The position numbers and the translations under genes are program-made. Of a stretch of 64,000 bases of DNA, positions 22,502 through 61,612 are shown in pieces. Every line of letters starts with the position of its first letter. Within the stretch, counting starts at the first letter, position 1. The stretch comes from Tepidamorphaceae bacterium (lineage in GTDB: Bacteria; Pseudomonadota; Alphaproteobacteria; Rhizobiales; JAKSCL01). The notes beneath the pieces were generated by a model. The model was not told the origin of the DNA. It worked only from the letters and a program-made list of their open reading frames with translations, and did not search any database. The stretch covers positions 62,001 through 126,000 of the forward strand of contig JANQPO010000017.1 in assembly GCA_028289445.1 (NCBI GenBank), read 5' to 3'.

Positions 22502-22693
22502 ATGATGACTATGGACGAAGACGAACCGCGCAAGAAGCCAAATTACGAGATCGGCCAAATGCTGGATCCGCTGTCCGTGGACGAGCTTGAGGAGGTCGTT
22601 TCGGTGCTGTCGCAGGAAATAGAGCGGTTGAAAGCGGAAATCGATCGGAAGAAATCGGATCTGTCCGCAGCTGAATCGCTATTTAAAACCTGA
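22502..22693 (+). CDS. DUF1192 family protein
   Basis: A 63-aa protein with core YEIGQMLDPLSVDELEEVVS followed by a coiled coil (LSQEIERLKAEIDRKKSDL), the DUF1192 pattern. In Alphaproteobacteria such genes lie beside rcdA. A small essential cell-cycle factor called FcrX from Sinorhizobium meliloti is encoded near rcdA and may be this family, but I am not certain of that identity. Three in-frame ATGs occur in the first four codons, so the exact start is open. Confidence 0.8.
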   Translation: MMTMDEDEPRKKPNYEIGQMLDPLSVDELEEVVSVLSQEIERLKAEIDRKKSDLSAAESLFKT

Positions 22694-22760
22694 TGAATTT
22701 CAACTGTTTACGCGTTCCCTTCCGAGGTATTTTGCACAAAATCGGCGATTTCTGATCGCG

Positions 22761-22776
22761 TTAACCATTTTTTAAC
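22761..22776. promoter_or_regulatory. Perfect CtrA box (TTAA-N7-TTAAC)
   Basis: TTAA at 22761-22764, seven bases, then TTAAC at 22772-22776. This matches the full consensus for the cell-cycle response regulator CtrA. It lies after the DUF1192 gene and 24 bases before the first of three stem-loops. That is about the distance expected if the box overlaps the -35 region of a promoter starting near 22800. Further TTAAC half-sites occur at 22787 and 22931. Confidence 0.7.
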
Positions 22777-22799
22777 ACCAACAGGGTTAACTAATCCCC

Positions 22800-22894
22800 A
22801 TCCAGTTTTCTGGATCTTTCGAGTGGCTCCTGTCCACTCTGTTTGACGCCTCCCTGTTAGACTCTTCGAGCCGCCTTTTTGGCGGCTCTTTTTT
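22800..22894 (+). ncRNA. Candidate CtrA-controlled small RNA with three stem-loops
   Basis: No ORF of note lies here, but three consecutive perfect hairpins occur: ATCCAG-TTTT-CTGGAT (22800-22815), GAGTGG-CTCCTGT-CCACTC (22821-22839), and the terminator GAGCCGCC-TTTTT-GGCGGCTC with six T (22868-22894). The second loop and the linker before the terminator are C/U-rich (CUCCUG, CCUCCC), a feature of several alphaproteobacterial trans-acting sRNAs that pair with ribosome sites. A CtrA box sits just upstream. It may instead be the structured 3' end of the DUF1192 transcript. Confidence 0.5.
22868..22894 (+). terminator. Rho-independent terminator
   Basis: GAGCCGCC-TTTTT-GGCGGCTC, an eight-base perfect stem, followed by TTTTTT. 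It ends any transcript of the DUF1192 gene and/or the candidate sRNA, and separates both from rcdA. Confidence 0.92.
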
Positions 22895-23076
22895 CGTCTG
22901 GATCCGGACCGCATTTCGACCGGACCTTGGTTAACTATATCCGAACATTGACACCCATCTGGGACGCCATTGGCTTTAAACCGGAGTGACAGTCTCGTCA
23001 CATCTGAGGGCATTGGCTTGTGGCGAGGGCGCAATATGTGCACCATGCCTGCCGCAGTCGCGTTTTCGGAGTTTGC

Positions 23077-23610
23077 GTGTTGTCGGACCGGACTCAGCCA
23101 TCAAATCGAACCGAAGCCGAGGCGATCGCCTTTGTCGAGCGCTTCGCGAATTCGGCGCAGTTCCGGCGTTTCTTTTCCGAAGGCATGGGACTGGTTGAGG
23201 AGACTGCCGACTATCTGGACGGCCAGGGACGGGATGACGTGAAACAGCTGGCGCGTCCGGTCTCGCTTCTCTACGCCTCGGAGAGCATGCGGCTGACCAC
23301 GCGGCTGATGCAGATCGCGTCTTGGCTGCTTCTGCAGCGTGCTGTCAATGACGGCGAGATGACGCGCGAGCAGGCGGCAGACGAGAACCGCAAGGTGTCT
23401 CTGGATACCTTGCCGCCGAACACAGACGACGACAGCTATCTCGACCTGCCGGAAGGTTTGGTGCGATTGATCGACCGGAGCCTCGCCTTTCAGCGCCGTG
23501 TCCGCCGGTTGGATACCTTGCTCTACGGACCGACGACCCAACCGCGTCGACGCAAGAACGATGTTCACGGCCAAGTCAGCCGTCTGGAGCAGATTTTCGG
23601 CGGCCGGTAA
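23077..23610 (+). CDS. rcdA: DUF1465 protein, RcdA-family protease adaptor
   Basis: About 177 aa. The core FVERFANSAQFRRFFSEGM, LVEETADYLDGQGRDDVKQL, SESMRLTTRLMQIASWLLLQ and LIDRSLAFQRRVRRLD matches DUF1465. In Caulobacter this family is RcdA, the adaptor that delivers CtrA and other substrates to ClpXP at the cell pole. GTG 23077 (or TTG 23080) is chosen because GGAG lies five to eight bases upstream; earlier in-frame starts have no ribosome site. A CtrA half-site TTAAC at 22931 lies in its probable promoter region. The downstream rpmE gene converges with it. Confidence 0.85.
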   Translation: MLSDRTQPSNRTEAEAIAFVERFANSAQFRRFFSEGMGLVEETADYLDGQGRDDVKQLARPVSLLYASESMRLTTRLMQIASWLLLQRAVNDGEMTREQAADENRKVSLDTLPPNTDDDSYLDLPEGLVRLIDRSLAFQRRVRRLDTLLYGPTTQPRRRKNDVHGQVSRLEQIFGGR

Positions 23611-38431: not shown

Positions 38432-38575
38432 GCGCCAGCAGGGCTGTGATCCGCGTGAGGATAAGCATATCCCCGGGGCCTTACCGATCCTAACGGGAGC
38501 TGTCCCTGCCTTGGTTCGTGGACCGGGGCACACGGCGCCCACCTACTTACGTAGGTTCCCGGGATCGCACCATCC
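38432..38575 (+). ncRNA. ssrS: 6S RNA
   Basis: Lies between zapA and the formyl-THF cyclo-ligase gene, the conserved position of 6S RNA. Closing stem visible: TGTGATCC (38445-38452) pairs with GGATCGCA (38562-38569), with one G-U pair. The characteristic 3' hairpin ACCTAC-TTAC-GTAGGT is at 38541-38556, and the middle strands (CCCCGGGGCC region and GACCGGGGC) can form the long arm around an open bubble. A CCTATATGC -10-like element is at 38421-38429. Ends are approximate. 6S RNA mimics an open promoter and holds RNA polymerase. Confidence 0.85.
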
Positions 38576-38622
38576 CACGGTTTCGCGGCTCTGCAGTGTT
38601 ACTCTCCAACCCGGCCTTGCCG

Positions 38623-57125: not shown

Positions 57126-57141
57126 TTAAATCAAACTTAAC
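57126..57141. promoter_or_regulatory. Perfect CtrA box upstream of the outer-membrane protein gene
   Basis: TTAA (57126-57129), seven bases, TTAAC (57137-57141): the full CtrA consensus. It is 83 bases before the outer-membrane protein ATG and 32 bases beyond the first codon of the truncated transporter gene. CtrA controls several envelope genes in Alphaproteobacteria, so cell-cycle control of this porin-like gene is plausible. Confidence 0.6.
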
Positions 57142-57223: not shown

Positions 57224-57961
57224 ATGGGCAGCCATCGCAAGAGCGTAATTGTTGGCGCTGTGTTTGCTATGCTTGCGGCGCCAGCCCTGGCGGCAGATCT
57301 TCCGCCGGTGGTCGAACCGCCGGTCACACCGCCGCTTGAAGACTTCTCGGCTTGGTATATCCGTGGCGACATTGGCTATAAGATGTACTCTGATCCTGAG
57401 GTGAACTATGCCAACGGGGCCGTCGAACTCGGCGAAGAGGAGTTTGACAACACCTGGATGGTTGGCCTTGGCGTCGGTTATCAGTTCAATCGCTACCTGC
57501 GTGCCGACGTGACCGTCGATTACGAATTCGAAGCTGACTTCGATAGCCGCACAGCCTGCGTGGGCGCCTGCGGTGCGACACTCGGTTCGACGACTGATGA
57601 ATCGAACATGACCGTATGGACGTTCATGCTGAACGGTTATGTCGATCTTGCTCACTGGAACGGCTTCACGCCTTACGTCGGCGCGGGTATCGGTGTCGCC
57701 TATATCGACATCGACGAGCTGGTCGAAACCTCTGGCTTCGGCAACCCGCCGATCCCGGGTGGTGAACAGTGGAACTTCGCCGCGAACGCGATGGCCGGTG
57801 TCGCATTCAACATCACCGAATATCTCCTCGTCGATGCCAACTACCGCTATCTGTGGCTTGGCGATGTCGAGGGCGATCGCGACGTTGGTGGCAACAGGCT
57901 GGAATACGAAGATCTGGCCGCGCACGAGATCCGCGTCGGTCTGCGCTACATGATCTACTGA
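57224..57961 (+). CDS. Outer-membrane beta-barrel protein, Omp25/OmpW-like
   Basis: A 245-aa protein with a signal peptide (cleavage after APALA, about residue 24) and an eight-stranded barrel pattern: WYIRGDIGYKMY, VGLGVGYQFNRYLRADVTVD, MLNGYVDLAHWNGFTPYVGA, MAGVAFNITEYLLVDANYRY and the closing EIRVGLRYMIY with a terminal aromatic, the outer-membrane assembly signal. This is the small porin family (Omp25/RopB-like) of Rhizobiales and relatives. GAGAGGA precedes ATG. It has a CtrA box upstream and a strong terminator downstream. Confidence 0.9.
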   Translation: MGSHRKSVIVGAVFAMLAAPALAADLPPVVEPPVTPPLEDFSAWYIRGDIGYKMYSDPEVNYANGAVELGEEEFDNTWMVGLGVGYQFNRYLRADVTVDYEFEADFDSRTACVGACGATLGSTTDESNMTVWTFMLNGYVDLAHWNGFTPYVGAGIGVAYIDIDELVETSGFGNPPIPGGEQWNFAANAMAGVAFNITEYLLVDANYRYLWLGDVEGDRDVGGNRLEYEDLAAHEIRVGLRYMIY

Positions 57962-60394: not shown

Positions 60395-60448
60395 GCCGCC
60401 GCGGGACACCCCTCCCCAACGAGGGGCAACTATCTGGAAGGGTAGGCT
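60395..60448 (+). promoter_or_regulatory. serC leader RNA element (serC-motif candidate)
   Basis: GCCGCCGCGGGAC is followed by the hairpin CCCCTC-CCCAAC-GAGGGG (60409-60426), and the ribosome site GGAAGGG lies just before the serC ATG. A conserved structured RNA called the serC motif has been reported upstream of serC in Alphaproteobacteria; location and GC-rich hairpin fit it. I cannot align it to the published consensus, so the match is by position and general form. Confidence 0.5.
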
Positions 60449-61612
60449 ATGACCGCGACTGACCAACCGGCCCGACGGCCGGACAATCCCCGTTTCTCAT
60501 CTGGACCTTGCGCCAAACGTCCCGGCTGGACGCCGGCGGCGCTTGTCGGCGCGAGCCTCGGGCGCTCGCACCGTTCGGCCGAGGGCAAGGCGAAGCTCGC
60601 ACAGGCGATCGACGACACACGTGCGCTTCTTGGCGTGCCGGACAACTATCGCATCGGCATCGTGCCCGCCTCCGACACGGGTGCTGTCGAAATGGCGATG
60701 TGGTCGCTGCTCGGCGCGCGCGGCGTCGATCTTCTGACCTGGGAGTCGTTCGGCAAAGGCTGGGTGACCGATGCCGTCAAACAACTCAAGCTGGACGATG
60801 CCCGCGTGCTTGAGGCCGAGTATGGGCACCTGCCTGACCTGTCGACCGTCGACTTCGACCGCGACGTCGTGTTCACCTGGAACGGGACCACGTCCGGTGT
60901 TCGGGTACCGCACGCCGATTGGATCGCCGCCGACCGGACAGGTTTGACGATCTGCGATGCGACCTCGGCCGTCTTCGCCCAGCGTCTCGACTGGGACAAG
61001 CTCGATGTGGTCACATACTCCTGGCAGAAGGTGATGGGCGGCGAGGCGGCACACGGCATGCTGATCTTATCGCCGCGCGCCGTCGAACGTCTGGAGACCT
61101 ACACGCCACCATGGCCCTTGCCTAAGATCTTCCGCTTAACCAAGGCCGGCAAGCTGATCGAGGGCGTGTTTCGCGGCGAGACCATCAACACGCCGTCTAT
61201 GCTGTGCGTGGAGGACTATCTGGACACGCTCGCCTGGGGGCGCCGGGTTGGCGGGCTCGATGGCCTGATCGGCCGCGCCGATGCCAATCTGGCCGTGCTG
61301 ACCCAGTGGGTCGATCGCACGGACTGGGTCGATTTTCTGGCGGTCGATCCGAAGACGCGATCGAATACGTCCGTTTGTCTGTCGCTCGCGGACCCGCGTC
61401 TTGCGGGGCGCGAGGCCGAATTCGCCAAGGCGCTGGTCAAGCGCCTTGAGGGCGAGGGTGTTGCTTATGACATCGGCGCCTATCGCGATGCGCCGCCGGG
61501 TCTACGCATCTGGGCCGGCGCGACGGTGGAGGCCGATGACCTTGTCATCTTGACCGAATGGCTCGACTGGGCCTTCGCCGCCGAAGCGGCATCGCTTTCG
61601 ACCGCCGCTTAA
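60449..61612 (+). CDS. serC: Phosphoserine aminotransferase
   Basis: A 387-aa PLP-dependent enzyme of the alphaproteobacterial SerC type: [15 protein letters not shown] start, [11 protein letters not shown] about 151, and the Schiff-base lysine in [15 protein letters not shown] about 194. Converts 3-phosphohydroxypyruvate and glutamate to O-phosphoserine. GGAAGGG precedes the ATG. serA follows 45 bases later, forming the serC-serA pair. Confidence 0.94.

Follow-up and report, generated by a model that had tools for sequence, protein, structure and literature searches.

A stretch of 64,000 nucleotides from a Tepidamorphaceae bacterium (the window) carries a local copy of the alphaproteobacterial small RNA (sRNA) BjrC1505 (RF02356), preceded by a CtrA-type box that keeps its place across the order Rhizobiales. 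The locus is a true sRNA of a family already catalogued, reportedly by Madhugiri et al. in 2012. What seems to be new is the order-wide, positionally fixed box, and because the box has both of these properties a CtrA-dependent sRNA is the best reading. We consider it likely that the locus produces a CtrA-driven, separately terminated BjrC1505 sRNA that acts in trans. Its features are as follows.

22502-22693, + strand: DUF1192 protein of 63 aa, upstream neighbour (Pfam PF06698, E 2.9e-21)
22761-22776, + strand: CtrA-type box TTAACCATTTTTTAAC (TTAA-N7-TTAAC), first T at -39 from the predicted start, conserved in 103/104 relatives at ≤1 mismatch
22787-22795, + strand: putative -10 region TTAACTAAT, a weak match placed by aligning the spacers of 52 relatives
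22800-22894, + strand: BjrC1505-family sRNA (RF02356, 86.8 bits; fold z -7.5), predicted start at box + 39
22800-22815, + strand: stem-loop 1 (ATCCAG TTTT CTGGAT), 96% of cells paired, 3/5 pairs with compensatory changes
22821-22839, + strand: stem-loop 2 (GAGTGG CTCCTGT CCACTC), 98.8% of cells paired, 2/6 pairs with compensatory changes
22841-22859, + strand: conserved segment GTTTGACGCCTCCCTGTTA with anti-Shine-Dalgarno-like CGCCUCCCUGU, proposed seed, 14-base block invariant
22868-22894, + strand: intrinsic terminator, 8-bp stem and T6, 6/8 pairs with compensatory changes
23020-23610, + strand: rcdA (DUF1465), downstream neighbour (Pfam PF07323, E 1.8e-54), true start probably later, near 23077

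The Rfam covariance model places the RNA firmly in the BjrC1505 family. RF02356 matches 22753-22895 over model positions 1-140 of 140, its 86.8 bits standing above the gathering score of 50 bits, and no difference excludes the locus from the family. The RNA itself, ~95 nt long and placed at 22800-22894 (+), has a folding energy of -40.3 kcal/mol (z -7.5 relative to shuffles) and ends in a strong terminator, a stem at 22868-22888 followed by TTTTTT at 22889-22894. Its start at 22800 is predicted by a box + 39 rule; the same rule yields exactly 100 nt in Sinorhizobium meliloti, the published length of SmelC671. Some relatives have 4-5 additional bases (GCGTA) between box and RNA, so the start may move by that much. 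A preliminary description of this DNA had proposed a compact RNA of ~95 bases, starting near 22800, ending at 22894 and independent of its neighbours; family membership, order-wide conservation and the published detection of a probable orthologue all speak for it.

The boundaries of the Rfam model probably need trimming, because it includes a promoter with the CtrA box. Model positions ~1-46 reach upstream of the likely transcription start and take in the promoter and the box, the latter at positions ~7-23; the true RNA is probably only the last ~95 of the 140 positions. Two other families, MmgR/suhB (RF00519) and SorX (RF02784), resemble the locus in a CCUCCCU segment before the terminator. 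They score 23.8 and 24.7 bits, below their gathering scores of 41 and 46.6, and we rejected membership in either, the motif alone being shared.

BjrC1505 is essentially an order-level sRNA, since model searches found it in 331 of 397 genomes sampled evenly from the order, against just 30 of 289 drawn from the class, and with no match in a Caulobacter vibrioides control genome. The 19-mer core of the RNA, at ≤1 mismatch, was present in 218 of the 397. Among 30 genomes chosen mostly for missing or weak RF02356 matches, seven also lack rcdA; others, including Bartonella-like genomes of 1.5-1.6 Mb, keep rcdA without a recognisable sRNA, and two of the Bartonella-like genomes retain a one-mismatch version of the rcdA-side box where the sRNA is not recognisable. 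At three loci outside the order, RF02356 homologues share an identical box TTAATTGTAATTTAA and an oxidoreductase upstream, with no rcdA within the 1.5-kb flank.

The sRNA occupies a conserved gene neighbourhood. Its neighbours in the window are DUF1192 and rcdA, which are + strand genes, with rpmE coming next on the opposite strand, and the conserved order is oxidoreductase, DUF1192, sRNA, rcdA, rpmE. The adjacency to rcdA remarked on in the preliminary description holds in relatives, with rcdA downstream and co-directional at 82 of 89 loci; DUF1192 lies upstream of the sRNA in 66 and the oxidoreductase is present in 75 of the same 89.

The position of the box follows the RNA, not the neighbouring genes. 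Its distance to stem-loop 2 averages 58.8 bases with a standard deviation of only 3.6, against 53 for the distance to rcdA and 104 for that to DUF1192. Shuffled windows would contain on average 0.03 matches to TTAA-N7-TTAAC, and the window itself has three, two of which are one near-palindromic site; the perfect copy reported earlier ahead of the RNA is indeed there, at 22761-22776. We scored the best TTAA-N7-TTAA inside a 40-base zone upstream of the RNA at 104 distinct loci. At 103 of these it had at most one mismatch (0 in 31, 1 in 72, 2 in 1) and lay at a near-constant distance from the RNA, compared with background rates at the same threshold of 0.9% in flanking zones of the same loci and 6.5% in mononucleotide shuffles. 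About 70% of boxes carry one mismatch among the eight core bases. Because the Rfam model contains the box, its matches could be biased towards it, and we re-collected loci by the 19-mer RNA core, which excludes the box; all 27 distinct loci retrieved by this core alone had it.

Box position and gene content are consistent with control by CtrA. The first T of the box (22761) precedes the first base of stem-loop 1 (22800) by 39 bases, and a full CtrA motif at -39 is described as activating in Caulobacter (PMC4287350). Counted from the predicted start, the TTAA-N7-TTAA thus stands at about -39, in the activating position that the preliminary description had assigned to it, and CtrA may bind and activate there. 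The window's genome has a ctrA gene, with 85% identity to the query over 226 residues. At the place of the -10 region many of the 52 relatives with aligned spacers have TATTACT or TATGACT; the -10 of the window itself matches poorly, and no consensus sigma-70 promoter was called at the locus.

An ordinary promoter could in principle mimic this arrangement. BjrC1505 would then be a real sRNA, with the two TTAA sites as a conserved A/T-rich element of its promoter and no role for CtrA, as might be read from the many boxes with one mismatch and from an earlier S. meliloti study that described the promoter of the SmelC671/Sm84 sRNA only as sigma-70-like (PMC2573895). We judge this unlikely: two TTAA half-sites exactly 7 bases apart are kept across most sampled families of the order, the box sits at a known CtrA activating distance, and ordinary promoters do not need a two-part motif.

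A variant arrangement in Rhizobiaceae separates the box of the sRNA from that of rcdA. A pattern search found it in 120 stretches from named records, S. meliloti 4H41 included. At 108 of 108 Rhizobiaceae loci a second, perfect CtrA box (often TTAACCCTTTCTTAA) lies between the sRNA terminator and rcdA, ~50-80 bases before the gene; as rcdA has its own perfect box there, the first is not needed for it. Before rcdA in the window, a search for a second box found only the half-site TTAAC at 22931-22935. The layout in 4H41 is DUF1192, box TTAACCGCAAATTAA, sRNA, terminator, second box TTAACCCTTTCTTAA, rcdA, rpmE, and box + 39 to the end of the T-run spans exactly 100 nt.

Judged by position and length, SmelC671/Sm84 is very probably the orthologue in S. 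meliloti. This published sRNA is 100 nt long, lies on the forward strand between the forward genes SMc03988 and SMc03989, and was detected as a ~80 nt Northern band and by microarray signals under six stresses (PMC2873474, PMC2573895). The 4H41 locus agrees with it in the layout of DUF1192, box, sRNA, rcdA and rpmE, in a length of 100 nt both predicted and published, and in a 6S RNA upstream, which in S. meliloti is on the opposite strand to the sRNA (14.2 kb away in 1021, 12.4 kb in 4H41), as it is, at ~13 kb, in another Rhizobiaceae genome. The S. meliloti RNA differs from that of the window in stem-loop 2 and the spacer; what the two clearly have in common is limited to the CUCCCUGU core, stem-loop 1 and the terminator. 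In the open-access literature that we searched, no paper that we read on SmelC671/Sm84 connected it with CtrA, and BjrC1505 was named only in a Herbaspirillum list; phrase searches there for a CtrA-regulated sRNA gave none, an absence limited to that literature.

CtrA binding near rcdA in S. meliloti may reflect the sRNA. ChIP-seq there placed a CtrA peak at the rcdA promoter, and rcdA mRNA was unchanged on CtrA depletion (PMC4433202). Mapping of CtrA regulons in Rhizobiales has dealt with protein genes; one survey at least, a motif scan that lists rcdA among motif genes, covered only the regions upstream of open reading frames (PMC3616915). The sRNA box offers one explanation for CtrA near rcdA without an rcdA response; as the second box sits nearer rcdA at all 108 Rhizobiaceae loci, assigning the published peak to the sRNA box needs the peak coordinates.

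The same data weigh on a rival proposal, in which the box belongs to rcdA, the hairpins serve the rcdA mRNA as leader or attenuator, and termination there yields the short RNA as a by-product. In Caulobacter rcdA is a direct target of CtrA activation (PMC4433202, PMC4287350), and rcdA follows on the same strand in the great majority of relatives, as counted above. We nevertheless regard this proposal as improbable, given that the box holds its distance to the RNA far more tightly than to rcdA, that an invariant seed and a full terminator fit a separate RNA, that in Rhizobiaceae a second box stands beside rcdA, that CtrA depletion in S. meliloti brings no rcdA response, and that some RF02356 matches outside the order have no rcdA in the 1.5-kb flank.

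Covariation supports the hairpins of the RNA. In an alignment of 41 diverse sequences, 93.6% of cells were paired and 13 of 27 pairs had changed on both sides, values that none of 500 shuffles reached. The alignment thus bears out the call for covarying pairs: the support stems from stem-loop 1, stem-loop 2 and the terminator, and the middle hairpin is weak. Three stem-loops had been described, and three conserved hairpins do stand, the terminator among them (22800-22815, ~22821-22839 and 22868-22888); the minimum-energy fold of the window, however, has four, and its CCUCCC hairpin (22841-22862) is only partly kept. Many relatives cannot form its outer pairs, and RNAalifold does not pair it.

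The middle segment resembles a pairing seed, because the hairpin breaks in relatives while the 14-base block TGACGCCTCCCTGT stays invariant, identical in 41 of 41 aligned sequences. The CCUCCC segment is thus likely a seed, which would act by direct pairing, and not a conserved hairpin. The C/U-rich, anti-Shine-Dalgarno-like segments remarked on at the outset are present, and such segments occur in several alphaproteobacterial sRNAs.

We propose the following course of events for a CtrA-driven sRNA. Phosphorylated CtrA would bind the box at 22761-22776, overlapping the -35 region, and with sigma-70 RNA polymerase would start transcription at ~22800. The terminator would end the RNA at 22894, apart from DUF1192 and rcdA. 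Acting in trans, the RNA would pair through the invariant CGCCUCCCUGU, perhaps together with the loop of stem-loop 2, with purine-rich ribosome-binding sites of target mRNAs, and such pairing would lower their translation.

Two known sRNAs resemble BjrC1505 in part. CcnA of Caulobacter crescentus is apparently expressed under CtrA and pairs through a C-rich loop near ribosome-binding sites (PMC8959179), but it lies in the replication origin and not beside rcdA, and RF02356 has no match in the Caulobacter control genome. EcpR1 (SmelC291), a Rhizobiales cell-cycle sRNA, uses a G+C-rich loop as its seed (PMC4414408), but it lies between pleD/celR2 and rpmG under stringent-response control and is listed beside Sm84 as a separate gene in one table. 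We rejected EcpR1 as the identity of the RNA on its locus, the flanks here being DUF1192 and DUF1465/rcdA and not pleD-divK/rpmG.

Searches for targets of the seed, which had been expected to pair with ribosome sites, gave nothing specific relative to controls. Searching 41 genomes for ribosome-binding-site complementarity (ACAGGGAGG-N2-9-ATG) returned solute-binding proteins as 8 of 16 Pfam-identifiable genes. A permuted control, CAAGGGAGG, yielded several as well, as judged by eye from N-terminal sequences, so the enrichment reflects strong ribosome sites and not seed specificity, and we rejected these genes as seed-specific targets. The extended complementarity ACAGGGAGGCGT found no recurrent target in 397 genomes, and several of its matches were the sRNA's own antisense strand. 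Separately, GGGAGG-type ribosome-binding sites strikingly often precede genes for periplasmic solute-binding proteins in the order, with either of two trinucleotides ahead.

Feedback of the RNA on CtrA proteolysis, as first suggested, is unsupported. Duplexes of the seed with the leaders of rcdA and DUF1192 in the window, and with the genome's ctrA leader, had energies no better than shuffles, the ribosome-site searches returned no specific targets, and a conserved neighbour is not evidence of a target; we therefore rejected feedback on rcdA or ctrA as supported by sequence. A loop in which the CtrA-driven RNA pairs with rcdA or ctrA mRNA to tune CtrA proteolysis or synthesis, an addition to our reading and not an alternative, has in its favour the conserved rcdA adjacency and the action of the apparently CtrA-activated CcnA on ctrA and gcrA mRNAs in Caulobacter (PMC8959179), but chance-level pairing leaves it with poor prospects.

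A CtrA-dependent BjrC1505 would give the CtrA regulon a post-transcriptional arm. If the box drives the sRNA, this arm would be conserved in most of the order, including rhizobia, agrobacteria and many other groups. There would be one explanation for CtrA occupancy near an unresponsive rcdA, and the Rfam family, which has no known role, would acquire one that can be tested in tractable laboratory strains, the probable orthologue having already been detected there. We lean, with some reserve, towards a broader view in which BjrC1505/SmelC671 is an ancient order-wide sRNA of the CtrA regulon, inherited with its box and rcdA, through which CtrA signalling extends to post-transcriptional control in most of the order, and in which part of the S. 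meliloti CtrA signal at rcdA is its promoter.

The window has further features of note. A 6S RNA (RF00013, 77.7 bits) lies at 38438-38595 (+), ~15.7 kb from the sRNA. It is also near the sRNA in S. meliloti and several Rhizobiaceae genomes, on opposite strands there, unlike in the window, which suggests a local inversion. A serC leader (RF00517, 73 bits) is found at 60399-60450 (+). Another perfect TTAA-N7-TTAAC, at 57126-57141 (+), stands ~83 bases before the open reading frame 57224-57961, whose outer-membrane beta-barrel-like product is possibly another CtrA target.
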